A stretch of 58,396 nt of DNA, taken from positions 1 to 58,396 of the forward strand of contig JANWVJ010000004.1 in assembly GCA_025056895.1 (NCBI GenBank). The letters run 5' to 3'. Made by a program: the position numbers and the translations under genes. Of the stretch, positions 5,591 to 9,909 are shown piece by piece. Below the pieces are notes generated by a model. That model worked only from the letters and a program-made list of their open reading frames with translations. It had not been told where the DNA came from and made no database searches. Each line of letters starts with the position of its first letter. The stretch's first letter is position 1. This DNA is from Thermoflexales bacterium (GTDB taxonomy: Bacteria > Chloroflexota > Anaerolineae > J036 > Brachytrichaceae).

Positions 5591-5890
5591 TCAATAGTGC
5601 TCGAACCGCTCGACATCCATGACGAACACAATCCCGCGTCCGGTAGCAGGAACAGCGGCGCCGCCGGCTGAATGACTACCCGACTGCATCGCCGTCACGC
5701 CGCGCCGGCGCAAGACATCGAGCGCCTGTTCTAATTGCTCGTCTTCAATGCCGGACAGCAAAGTGGTGTTTTCACGCCGCAGCCAGCCGCCCGTTGTAGC
5801 AATCCGCGTGACGCGAAAGCCGGCCTCGATCATGGCTTCGACCGTCTTGGCAGCTTCATCCGCCGGCACCACGGCCATCAGCAACTTCAC
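5591..5890 (-). CDS. darA: Cyclic-di-AMP receptor, PII-like (YaaQ/DarA family)
   Basis: This 99-residue protein matches the PII-like signal receptor family (DUF970) that binds cyclic di-AMP as a trimer in Firmicutes and relatives. It opens with a ferredoxin-like beta strand and helix (MKLLMAVVPADEAAKTVEAM). It then shows the conserved R-x-x-T-T-G-G-W-L segment, with the family's T-loop region around the ENTTLLSGIEDEQ stretch. GGAGGTG precedes the ATG at a good distance. It stands alone between the tRNA and the divergent B12 gene. Known homologues lack an enzymatic activity and their partners are mostly unknown. Confidence 0.85.
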   Translation of the reverse strand: MKLLMAVVPADEAAKTVEAMIEAGFRVTRIATTGGWLRRENTTLLSGIEDEQLEQALDVLRRRGVTAMQSGSHSAGGAAVPATGRGIVFVMDVERFEHY

Positions 5891-6183
5891 GTTTCACCTC
5901 CGTTGACTCAGCATGTAGCTGCACATGCCGGAATGGCGCAAGGATAACAGAAGCGCACAGGGTCGCGCGCAAGCAATCTCGTCCTCATGCTCAGCCGGCT
6001 TACAAGGAAGCAACTAGAATGGACACAAGCGCCGGTCGCCTGTTTGGCAACTACAGGTTCGAGACGACGACCGGACGGCGCACTGAATCGATGGCGGACG
6101 CGGTCTGCTCCTTGAAACCGATCGTTGAATTCAATCGGCAGGATGCAGGCGGTGCGTCATGGTTACAGGAGGCGAGGTGCTCG

Positions 6184-7827
6184 ATGAAAACGGTTGTGGC
6201 AGGGGCGCTGGGCGAGTGCGTGCACGTAGCCGGCGTCTCTCACTTTCTGCGCTTGGCCGAGGCCGCTGGCTGGCGCGCGATCTTTCTAGGGCCGGCTGTG
6301 CCGATCGAACGCATTCTGTCTGTGGCGCGCGAGACGGGCGCTGAGCTAGTTGGCGTTTCCTATCGTCTGACGCCGGAGACGGGTGAGCGATTACTGGGTG
6401 AATTCGCCGAAGCGGCGGATGAACTGCGCGCAGCCGGCGTGCGCTTCGCCTTTGCCGGCACGCCCCCCGTCGCAGCTCGCGCCCAGGCGCTGGGCTTTTT
6501 CGAGCGGGTCTTTGCCGGCGGCGAATCGGATGATGAAGTGCTGGCCTACCTGAAGGGCGAAAGGGCGATTGCACAAGGGGAAGCCGATTACCCTCAATCA
6601 ACCGTCGAGCGCATCCGTTGGAAATCGCCCTATCCCTTGATTCGTCACCACTTCGGCTTGCCAACGCTGCACGCAACTCTGGACGGCATCGCCCAAATTG
6701 CCGAGGCGCGCGTGTTGGATGTGATCTCGCTGGGCATCGACCAAGACGCGCAGGAGAACTTCTTCCACCCCGAACGCCAAGACCCACGCCGGATGGGCGC
6801 CGGCGGTGTGCCGGTGCGCAGCGCCGAGGACTACCGCGCCCTCTACGCGGCCAGCCGGCGGGGCAACTACCCGCTTCTGCGCACGTATTCGGGCACCGAT
6901 GACTTCATCCGCCTGGCCGAACTCTATGTGGAAACCATCCACATTGCTTGGTGCGCCATCCCGCTGTTCTGGTTCAACCAGATGGATGGGCGCGGGCCGT
7001 GGGATTTAGCCGGATCGATCCGTGAACATCAACAGGTAATGGCCTGGTACGGCGCACACGACATTCCCGTGGAGCTGAACGAGCCGCATCACTGGGGTAT
7101 GCGCGACGCTTCTGACGTAGTGTGCGTCACGGCGGCGTACCTGTCAGCCTACAATGCGCGCGCGTTCGGCGTGCGCGACTACATTGCTCAGCTCATGTTC
7201 AACAGCCCGCCTGGCCTGAGCGACCGCATGGACTTGGCGAAGATGTTGGCCATGCTCGACATCATCGCTCCCCTGGCAAACGAGCACTTCCGCATCTGGC
7301 GTCAGACGCGCACCGGCTTGCTCAGCTACCCGCTTGACATCGACGCAGCCCGCGCGCACTTGGCAACGAGCGTGTACGTGCAAATGGCGGTCCGCCCTCA
7401 CATCGTGCACGTTGTCGGCCATACCGAGGCCGATCACGCCGCCACGGCTGCCGATGTCATCGAGTCATGCAAATTGGCGCGCCGGGCGATCGAAGCCGCC
7501 ACGCGTGGCGCTCCGGACATGACAGCCGACCCAGTGGTGCAAGAACGCCGTGAATTTCTAATCGCCGAGGCGAGGTGTACTCTGGATGCCATTCGTGAAC
7601 TGGCCAGCCCAGGGGTGAGCGACCCCCTCACCGATCCGCCCACGCTGGCGCGCGCCGTCCAGATCGGCATTCTCGACGCGCCCCAACTGAAGAACAATCG
7701 TTTTGCGCCGGGTCGCATCATCACGCAAATCAACGCCTGTGGTGGATGCGATGCGGTGGATGCGGAGGGCCGGCCGCTGCCTGAACGGACGCGCCTGGCC
7801 ACCCTCCTGAAGGAGTGGACAGCATGA
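6184..7827 (+). CDS. Cobalamin-binding mutase-like protein
   Basis: The first ~130 residues resemble a B12-binding Rossmann domain. In place of the usual D-x-H-x-x-G there is C-V-H-V-A-G (12-17), which keeps the cobalt-ligating His and Gly but lacks the Asp. The remaining ~400 residues look like a TIM-barrel catalytic domain related to glutamate mutase E-type proteins, with HHWGMRDASD and NSPPGLSDRMD motifs. An ACGGC Cys pair lies near the C-terminus. I chose the ATG at 6184 (AGGAGG at 6167-6172) because the B12 domain begins there; the frame is open back to an ATG at 6019 with its own weak AAGGAAG site, which would add 55 residues. The next gene overlaps it by four bases, so the two products are probably made together. 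The reaction is unknown; a carbon-skeleton rearrangement of an amino acid is a guess. Confidence 0.7.
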   Translation: MKTVVAGALGECVHVAGVSHFLRLAEAAGWRAIFLGPAVPIERILSVARETGAELVGVSYRLTPETGERLLGEFAEAADELRAAGVRFAFAGTPPVAARAQALGFFERVFAGGESDDEVLAYLKGERAIAQGEADYPQSTVERIRWKSPYPLIRHHFGLPTLHATLDGIAQIAEARVLDVISLGIDQDAQENFFHPERQDPRRMGAGGVPVRSAEDYRALYAASRRGNYPLLRTYSGTDDFIRLAELYVETIHIAWCAIPLFWFNQMDGRGPWDLAGSIREHQQVMAWYGAHDIPVELNEPHHWGMRDASDVVCVTAAYLSAYNARAFGVRDYIAQLMFNSPPGLSDRMDLAKMLAMLDIIAPLANEHFRIWRQTRTGLLSYPLDIDAARAHLATSVYVQMAVRPHIVHVVGHTEADHAATAADVIESCKLARRAIEAATRGAPDMTADPVVQERREFLIAEARCTLDAIRELASPGVSDPLTDPPTLARAVQIGILDAPQLKNNRFAPGRIITQINACGGCDAVDAEGRPLPERTRLATLLKEWTA

Positions 7828-8939
7828 CTGTATCTGACGGACAAACGGACTACACAGTGATCGGCGCGGGTAACGGCGGCAAAGCCATGGCGGCGCACCT
7901 GGCGCTGATGGGATGTCGCGTTACGTTGTACAACCGCACCTTTGACCGCATCAGCGCGATCCACAAACGCGGCGGGATCGACTTAGAGAGCTATGACGGC
8001 GGCCCGCGCGGCTTCGGGCGCTTGGATTGTGTCACGTCGGACATGGGCGAGGCAGTGCGCCGGTCGCGGGTGGTTATGGTGGTCACGCCCTCGTCGGCCC
8101 ACGCCGAGATTGCAGCCCACGCAGCCCCTCACTTGCGCGATGGTCAAATTGTGGTGTTGCACCCAGGCCGCACGTGCGGGGCGATTGAATTCGTCAAGGT
8201 GTTGTGCGACAAGGGGTGCCGCGCCGATGTAACGGTGGCCGAAGCAGAAACGTTTATCTACGCCAGCCGGTCAGACGGGCCGGCCCAGGCGCGCATCTTC
8301 CGAATCAAAGAGGCTGTGCCGTTGGCAGCGCTGCCGGCCATCCGCACCGCGATGGTGCTTGAGGCGCTTCGACCGGCTTACCCGCAGTTCATCGACGGCG
8401 TGAATGTATTGCACACCGGCCTGAACAACATGGGGGCCATTTTTCATCCGGCGCTGACGCTGCTCAATGCCGGGCGGATTGAATCCACCAACGGCGACTT
8501 CCAGTTTTACATCGAGGGGGTAACCCCCTCGGTGGCGCGCGTGCTGGAAGTGCTCGACCGAGAACGGGTGACCGTCGCGGCGGCGCTGGGCATCCGCGCC
8601 CGTACAGCGATGGAGTGGTTGCAACTAGCGTACAACGCCGCTGGGGCAGATCTGAATGAGGCCATCCACAATCAGCCCGGTTATTACGGCATCAAGGCGC
8701 CGGCAACCCTCAATCACCGCTATCTCTTTGAAGACGTGCCGATGAGCCTGGTGCCGATCGCAGCGCTCGGTCAGCGCTATGGCGTGTCGGTGCGCGCGAT
8801 GGACAGCATCATTCAGTTAGCTTGCATCGTGCATCGCACGGATTACTGGCGCCGTGGACGCACCCTGGACAAACTGGGCATCGAGCAATTGAGCGTGAGC
8901 GAGATCACGCAATATGTGAACGAGGGGCTGCGGGAATAA
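7824..8939 (+). CDS. Octopine/nopaline dehydrogenase family NAD(P) oxidoreductase
   Basis: This 371-residue enzyme starts with an NAD(P)-binding motif (IGAGNGGKAMAAHLA). Its C-terminal all-helical domain has the conserved N-x-x-x-H-x-x-x-x-L opine dehydrogenase signature (NNMGAIFHPALTLLNAG). Family members reductively join an amino acid and a 2-keto acid to make opines, or run the reverse. The ATG at 7824 overlaps the upstream TGA (ATGA) and has AAGGAG eight bases before it, a clear sign of translational coupling to the B12-binding mutase-like protein. That pairing suggests the dehydrogenase makes or uses the amino-acid substrate of the mutase; the actual substrate is unknown. Confidence 0.82.
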   Translation: MTVSDGQTDYTVIGAGNGGKAMAAHLALMGCRVTLYNRTFDRISAIHKRGGIDLESYDGGPRGFGRLDCVTSDMGEAVRRSRVVMVVTPSSAHAEIAAHAAPHLRDGQIVVLHPGRTCGAIEFVKVLCDKGCRADVTVAEAETFIYASRSDGPAQARIFRIKEAVPLAALPAIRTAMVLEALRPAYPQFIDGVNVLHTGLNNMGAIFHPALTLLNAGRIESTNGDFQFYIEGVTPSVARVLEVLDRERVTVAAALGIRARTAMEWLQLAYNAAGADLNEAIHNQPGYYGIKAPATLNHRYLFEDVPMSLVPIAALGQRYGVSVRAMDSIIQLACIVHRTDYWRRGRTLDKLGIEQLSVSEITQYVNEGLRE

Positions 8940-9063: not shown

Positions 9064-9909
9064 ATGAGAACACTGCTTCGCAAGAGCATTGCCGGCTTAA
9101 CGCTGGTCGGAGTTCTAAGCGTAACGGCCGCTGCAACCAGCGTACCGGCTCAGGCGCAATCCCTTGGTCGGATCATCGGTGTAGCCTTTCAAGATAGGAA
9201 CGGCAACGGCCGACGAGAGGCGAACGAGCCTGTTCTGCGCGTAGCGCGTTACAAAGTGACAGACGGTGGCCGTTTCTGGGTGTGCGGGCCGGTTTTCGGC
9301 AACTCAGCCTACAACGTTGGCGTGCCCGCTGGCACCTACTACGTGATGCCGATCGCCGGTCCGGCCGAGTACGCCACGGTTCCGGTGATCAAAGTGGATG
9401 TGAGAGCCGGCCAAAATGTGCGAGTCGATTTGCCTTTCGGCACCAACGCCCTGGCAGTTGCCGACAACTGTGGTGCATACGCTCCCAAGCGCACAGCACG
9501 CGTGCCGATGGGCATTCCGGAAACAATTATGGGCCAGGGTCTGGTGACCCTGATGACCGCCATCGAGACCGCCGGCCTGTTCAACACGCTGAGCGGCCCC
9601 GGCCCGTTCACAGTATTCGCGCCAAGCGATCTGGCGTTTGCCAAATTCACGGATAGCGAGTTGAAAGCAATCTTGGCAGACAAAGCCTTGCTCACCTCGA
9701 TACTGACTTACCATGTCGTGCCCGGCCGCCTGACCGCGAATGATGTGGTGAACTCGGACTCCCTGACCACTGTTAACGGCAAGACACTGGCAGTGACCAT
9801 TGACGCCGAGACGGGTGACGTATTCGTAGGCGGCGCGCGTGTCAAGACAGTCGACCTGAATGCCGCGAATGGTGTGGTGCACGTCATTGACACGGTGCTG
9901 GTACCCTAA
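9064..9909 (+). CDS. Secreted fasciclin-domain protein
   Basis: The 281-residue protein has an N-terminal signal peptide ending near an AQAQS site (about residue 32). An SdrD B-like/cna-type beta domain (DRNGNGRREANEP, then a GTYYV-type strand) spans roughly 35-130, and a FAS1/fasciclin domain spans about 150-280 (GPFTVFAPSDLAF, LTYHVVPGRL, NGVVHVIDTVLVP). Fasciclin domains mediate adhesion and are common in bacterial surface proteins. AGGAG lies just before the start codon. The Pho-box-like array upstream suggests expression under phosphate starvation together with pstS. A strong terminator follows, so it is monocistronic. Confidence 0.87.
   Translation: MRTLLRKSIAGLTLVGVLSVTAAATSVPAQAQSLGRIIGVAFQDRNGNGRREANEPVLRVARYKVTDGGRFWVCGPVFGNSAYNVGVPAGTYYVMPIAGPAEYATVPVIKVDVRAGQNVRVDLPFGTNALAVADNCGAYAPKRTARVPMGIPETIMGQGLVTLMTAIETAGLFNTLSGPGPFTVFAPSDLAFAKFTDSELKAILADKALLTSILTYHVVPGRLTANDVVNSDSLTTVNGKTLAVTIDAETGDVFVGGARVKTVDLNAANGVVHVIDTVLVP

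Follow-up and report, generated by a model that had tools for sequence, protein, structure and literature searches.

A conserved gene pair for a B12 mutase-type enzyme and an opine dehydrogenase in Chloroflexota, with a possible role in one short pathway

Introduction

To our knowledge, few B12-dependent carbon-skeleton mutases act on substrates other than CoA thioesters. The presence, in a Thermoflexales bacterium, of a gene for a B12-binding protein (gene A) running directly into a gene for an opine dehydrogenase (gene B) raises the question of whether these enzymes work together and, if so, on what kind of compound. The pair is located in the window, that is, the whole stretch of 58,396 nucleotides that was analysed (contig JANWVJ010000004.1). 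The sequence-only reading had proposed that an amino-acid rearranging enzyme was coupled here with a reductive condensing enzyme in a new pathway type. A literature search confined to open-licence papers retrieved none on a B12 mutase/opine dehydrogenase pair, which makes a new pathway type plausible.

Gene models, domains and conserved residues

Gene A is preceded by an AGGAGG-type ribosome site and extends from an ATG at 6184 to a stop codon at 7825-7827. The longest ORF of gene B begins at a GTG at 7815, and its likely start is the ATG at 7824, giving a gene of 7824-8939, since this codon forms an ATGA overlap with the stop of A and has an AAGGAG 8 nt upstream. The ATGA overlap described for the pair from the letters alone was thus confirmed. 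The features of the two genes are as follows.

6184..7827, + strand: gene A, N-terminal B12-binding domain and GlmE-like TIM barrel, 547 aa (ORF, Pfam, predicted fold)
6190..6528, + strand: B12-binding Rossmann domain of A, residues 3-115 (Pfam PF02310, E 7.2e-9)
6211..6234, + strand: GECVHVAG motif of A, residues 10-17 (C and H invariant in 81/81; aligned to the GlmS motif)
7824..8939, + strand: gene B, opine dehydrogenase-type enzyme, with the ATGA overlap with A (ORF, Pfam, 1bg6 alignment)
8403..8831, + strand: Octopine_DH helical domain of B (PF02317, E 3.1e-49)
8445..8447, + strand: His of B aligned to CENDH His202 (1bg6 alignment)
8718-8720, + strand: Arg of B aligned to CENDH Arg292 (1bg6 alignment)
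8733-8735, + strand: Asp of B aligned to CENDH Asp297 (1bg6 alignment)

The B12 motif of A reads CVHxxG instead of the usual DxHxxG, with Cys12 occupying the Asp position of GlmS and His14 being the presumed cobalt ligand. Both residues were found in all 81 aligned main-type copies, which bears out the earlier claim of a Cys-for-Asp motif with the His kept, and G-x-C-V-H-x-x-G was also read in 6/6 divergent proteins in which this part is complete (a seventh, in L188, is truncated by a contig end and lacks it). An Asp two residues ahead of the cobalt-ligand His was not found in the family (0/81 main-type, 0/6 divergent). This swap could alter or abolish the normal His-on chemistry. The Cys pair remarked upon at the C terminus of A stood only in part: Cys522 is retained in 67/81 copies, but Cys519 is substituted in most of them, so that the pair is not a family feature.

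With regard to B, the N-terminal part matched NAD-binding families in Pfam, so that the Rossmann plus Octopine_DH architecture was found, and the protein gave a full-length match (E 9.9e-82) to N-(1-D-carboxylethyl)-L-norvaline dehydrogenase (CENDH, 1bg6). The His202, Arg292 and Asp297 positions retained in B are what we take to be the catalytic set of opine dehydrogenases, a His/Asp dyad plus an Arg. It is close to certain that B is an opine-dehydrogenase-type enzyme at the family level. We know of no mutase partner described for CENDH.

Concerning the surroundings of A, no cobalamin riboswitch was found upstream, a tRNA being the only element in the window that reached the Rfam gathering score, and no inverted repeats were present from 5860 to 6200. 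No plasmid-borne relatives were found, either for A or for the form represented by L091.

Predicted fold of A and its substrate pocket

The C-terminal part of A matched no recognised family in Pfam or NCBIfam; Met_asp_mut_E (PF06368) gave no match to gene A at E 1, and the PF06368 match in the same genome belongs to another ORF. A structural model was built with AlphaFold2 on 48 aligned relatives (mean pLDDT 86, pTM 0.83), and the nearest known fold for its barrel is that of glutamate mutase E, with a Foldseek E of 2.1e-16.

6577..7788, + strand: GlmE-like TIM barrel of A plus C-terminal extension, residues 132-535 (VIA Z 31.8 to 6h9e_B, 366 residues aligned, model range 133-535)
7426..7428, + strand: Glu415 of A, aligned with Glu330 of glutamate mutase (hhalign; invariant in 81/81)

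The next-best folds for the barrel by VIA were lysine 5,6-aminomutase (Z 29.2), ornithine 4,5-aminomutase (25.9) and methylmalonyl-CoA mutase (about 20), while the N-terminal 126 residues matched the solved B12-binding protein 4jgi with Z 16.0 over 119 residues. The description of A as glutamate-mutase-E-like was thus right by predicted fold, though Pfam is blind to it, and the modelling check proposed for the cobalamin pocket returned a B12-type Rossmann domain placed on a GlmE-like barrel. At the family level, A is close to certain to be a B12 mutase-type enzyme.

Profile alignment of A with GlmE (hhalign) was colinear across the barrel, with E 1.2e-6 and about 19% identity, a level at which the residue mapping, drawn from sequence profiles and not from 3D coordinates, is a good guess. 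In this mapping, Glu415 corresponds to Glu330 of glutamate mutase, a residue that contacts adenosine according to PMC4413051. The arginine claw of glutamate mutase, formed by Arg66, Arg100 and Arg149 (pocket roles as given in PMC10947579 and PMC4413051), is unmatched in A: Arg66 is replaced by the invariant His156 and Arg100 by the invariant Gln190, while Arg149 aligns with Tyr235, or with Arg233 after shifting one gap. Because this claw is not conserved, the substrate of A is probably a compound other than glutamate.

These observations weigh on the reading of A as a fused, single-chain glutamate mutase forming 3-methylaspartate, with B using that product or being incidental. The nearest fold, a GlmL equivalog adjoining one relative of A (L192, see below) and the suitability of an aspartate-like product for an AsnB-type partner speak for it; the altered claw, the missing PF06368 match and an A-B linkage far too tight for an incidental B make it very improbable. 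Compared with the GlmE/GlmS and MutE/MutS systems, A shares the barrel fold, the B12 domain with its His, the adenosine-contacting Glu and the occurrence of GlmL near some relatives, but its B12 domain is fused N-terminally, with a Cys for the motif Asp. The partners differ as well: methylaspartase serves the classical glutamate mutase pathway, whereas A is accompanied by an opine dehydrogenase.

The second-best folds would agree with an ornithine- or lysine-type aminomutase that depends on PLP and B12 and acts with an ornithine-racemase-like enzyme, and Orr-like racemases do occur near two relatives of A, in L189 and L080, each scoring below the Orr cut-off. The general plan of a mutase with a dehydrogenase partner is likewise shared with D-ornithine 4,5- and lysine 5,6-aminomutases, although the dehydrogenases of those systems (DAPDH and the like) belong to families other than that of B. 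Ornithine 4,5-aminomutase (OAM) binds PLP through Lys629 of its B12 Rossmann domain, as stated in PMC4256349. An invariant Lys in this role was not found in the Rossmann domain of A (residues 1-125, 48 aligned sequences), and none was nearly invariant either, which leaves the aminomutase reading with only a slim probability.

A might perform no radical rearrangement at all, being a corrinoid methyltransferase or a B12-sensing regulator of B. The unusual CVHxxG motif and the absence of GlmL from main-type loci would be consistent with such a role, which is nevertheless hardly probable in view of the high conservation of both the mutase barrel and the adenosine-contacting Glu, and of the presence of GlmL alongside divergent relatives. 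Because of this same fold, Glu415 and the GlmL in relatives, A is taken to use AdoCbl radical chemistry, and its own genome encodes a corrinoid adenosyltransferase.

Linkage and distribution of the pair

The conservation of the pair was assessed on 80 of the 212 relatives of A, listed from one scan of genome contigs; these 80 were all from Chloroflexota. In 78 of these 80 loci B adjoins A or shares an ORF with it, so that the two genes were found to be kept together as neighbours, as the check set out for the pair had asked. B is located downstream in 74 loci, upstream in two (L012, L024) and in the same ORF as A in two, while one of the remaining loci ends at a contig edge and one (L021) is without B. 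The pair in L029 is a true in-frame fusion; the A-B fusion in L059 was rejected as a deletion chimera. The 4-base overlap was observed in 15/73 measured cases, with the B start taken as the one nearest the A stop. Among cultured strains, the pair is present in Anaerolinea thermolimosa (L017), Levilinea saccharolytica (L081), Ornatilinea apprima (L031) and Bellilinea caldifistulae (L040).

Moreover, A was present in 16 of 301 Chloroflexota genomes, and B, at an identity of at least 66%, in 15 of 301, which are exactly the 15 with a main-type A; the sixteenth A-bearing genome (G184) has a divergent A with its own opine dehydrogenase. A further 37 of the 301 genomes hold distant B homologues only, with A absent. 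In eight genomes such distant homologues had been flagged as having stops inside, and the stop was the natural terminal one in the 5/5 checked. The functional coupling of A and B is therefore very well supported, and this genomic linkage is the reason for considering that both act on one metabolite.

Divergent relatives and their partners

The divergent relatives of A were found in more varied gene orders. In L191 (A 57% identical) A and B lie side by side, and in L190 (A 61% identical) an opine dehydrogenase was not seen within the 3,077-base contig. The genes of L192 (A 55% identical) run from a c-di-AMP-receptor-family gene through GlmL (an equivalog match of 593 bits), an opine dehydrogenase and A to a peptide-type ABC transporter. 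In L091 and L187 a mutase 33-38% identical to A is fused to MutL and has ahead of it an opine dehydrogenase merely 25-27% identical to B. The ORF of L189, which belongs to the same mutase branch, runs on in L188, where MutL is found; its opine dehydrogenase is 44% identical to B, and upstream are an Orr-like racemase, a gamma-glutamyltransferase, a C45 hydrolase, an RpiR regulator and an importer.

The different partners of L189 and of L091/L187 indicate that this mutase branch retains an opine dehydrogenase though the enzyme lineage changes, and this retention is the strongest evidence that both activities belong together. Among the contextual evidence, the GlmL near these relatives speaks most strongly for AdoCbl radical chemistry. 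It was found at 0/80 training and 0/17 independent main-type loci, and the genome under study has only a 24.5-bit MutL match.

Other mutase-like loci were observed in Chloroflexota. Genome G089 carries two loci of the GlmE-GlmL type (L123:4777-7600 and L122:6298-9663); the GlmE of L123 gave a match to glutamate mutase E with E 1.5e-150 and has Leu at the Arg149 and Glu171 positions, so that it may be a mutase for a different substrate. In G060 (L117/L124), a MutL-type protein adjoins a protein whose C-terminal stretch resembles a B12-binding domain, possibly another mutase family. Many Chloroflexota encode large MutL-like proteins (about 580-735 aa), and in the two loci inspected (L118, L119) the gene follows two ORFs whose products resemble membrane proteins; a B12 mutase was not seen in the vicinity.

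The main-type neighbourhood and the direction of the pathway

Nothing beyond the A-B pair itself was universal at main-type loci. The recurrent neighbours comprised AsnB-like proteins, a D-Ala-D-Ala-ligase-like ATP-grasp protein, a DUF5698/DUF2179 membrane protein, a small PII-like protein and several cation/proton or cation exchangers. In the window, the last but one of these is represented as follows, for context.

5591..5890, - strand: PII-like gene of the cyclic-di-AMP-receptor family, divergent upstream of A (PF06153, E 2.3e-19)

The PF06153 family also occurs in L003 and near A at several other loci, and in 0/40 control stretches. Downstream of B, at 9064-9909, the window holds a gene for a fasciclin-domain protein.

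Enrichment was evaluated at 17 independent loci against 40 random stretches of pair-bearing genomes, drawn from eight genomes. With query families picked after inspection of the 80 training loci, and with three independent loci (L191, L194, L195) having entered the set after inspection and two (L131, L133) being of the same genus, AsnB was found at 7/17 loci against 0/40 controls (Fisher p 7.4e-5); in an earlier run without these three loci and without NhaA, it was found at 7/14 against 0/40. Cation antiporters were found at 6/17 loci against 1/40 controls (p 0.0019), with NhaA having joined the query set after its sighting in L138, one of the 17, where it is placed directly ahead of A. DUF5698 occurred at 3/17 against 0/40, and glucosylglycerate genes by themselves were not enriched (2/17 against 1/40, p 0.21). 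Genes for GpgS and for a mannosylglucosylglycerate-synthase-like protein are present in L131. AsnB was present in 13/80 training loci and is thus missing from most pair loci, and no AsnB partner was found at E 1e-10 in the genome under study, which is 87% complete.

Some of these arrays are compact or elaborate. For example, in L195:5312-11601 genes for CitMHS, Usp, a Na/H exchanger, the PII-like protein, A and B are co-directional with gaps below 50 bases, and it is possible that the six form one operon. In L025:10863-13803, two tandem AsnB-like genes downstream of the pair begin with MCGIAGV, which has the N-terminal Cys nucleophile, and with MSGIAGV, which is without it, suggesting an amidotransferase and a ligase without glutamine hydrolysis. 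In L080:10940-13040, a main-type pair is followed, about 2-3 kb further downstream, by genes for an ATP-grasp ligase and the Orr-like racemase.

An asparagine-synthetase-like amidotransferase in an osmoadaptation context is known from the operon for N-acetylglutaminylglutamine amide (NAGGN), and the AsnB-like enzymes at pair loci resemble it in both respects. However, the pair-locus AsnB scores as AsnB, with 273.6 bits against a cut-off of 570.1 for the NAGGN amidotransferase, and the A-B loci bring a B12 mutase and an opine dehydrogenase instead.

The neighbourhoods bear on whether the module makes or degrades its compound. It might be purely catabolic, main branch included: B would split imported peptides or opines and A would rearrange the freed amino acid for fermentation, with AsnB and the antiporters being incidental. 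The importer (SBP_bac_5, permeases), the gamma-glutamyltransferase, the C45 hydrolase, the Orr-like racemase, the RpiR/GntR regulators and the GlmL around the divergent L192, L189, L187 and L091 would suit this reading, as would the fermentative life style of Anaerolineae. At main-type loci, by contrast, the SBP5 importer was found in only 1/80 training and 0/17 independent cases, whereas those loci show an enrichment of AsnB and cation antiporters; a purely catabolic role is accordingly regarded as unlikely, though it keeps a real share of the probability.

Proposed pathway and implications

The reading preferred here, by a modest balance of probability, is that A and B are the AdoCbl radical mutase and the opine dehydrogenase of one short pathway, which may lead to an osmolyte in the main branch and serve degradation in the divergent ones. 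From the fold and the invariant residues, the Rossmann domain of A would hold B12 with His14 on the cobalt, the TIM barrel would close over it and Glu415 would help the cleavage of the Co-C bond. A would then rearrange the skeleton of an amino-acid-like compound, probably not glutamate. That A rearranges an amino acid, as the earlier designation had it, is likely, and its pocket does not conserve the glutamate-specific residues. Given its family and catalytic residues, B would reductively join this amino acid and a keto acid or, in reverse, split the opine. The synthetic direction appears more likely in the main Anaerolineae branch, where the AsnB-like enzyme may amidate or ligate the product, possibly an osmolyte, and the degrading direction appears more likely in the divergent branches linked to importers and GlmL. 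The osmolyte side of this reading is favoured by the enrichment of AsnB and cation antiporters and by the GpgS, NhaA and c-di-AMP-receptor genes close to the pair; the lack of AsnB at most pair loci and the unenriched glucosylglycerate genes weigh against it.

A more specific and rather speculative version, to which only a minor probability is given, is a new class of compatible solute in Anaerolineae, in which the mutase would produce a rearranged or branched amino acid, the opine dehydrogenase would form from this an N-carboxyalkyl amino acid, and amidation by an AsnB-like enzyme would follow, under ion and cyclic-di-AMP-type control, with other Chloroflexota importing and degrading the same compound by means of the same pair plus GlmL. 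If the osmolyte reading is true, B12 would be required for salt adaptation in these bacteria. This deeply conserved family, with its altered cobalt-ligand motif, altered substrate pocket and fixed opine-dehydrogenase partner, points to a new metabolite in very common anaerobes.
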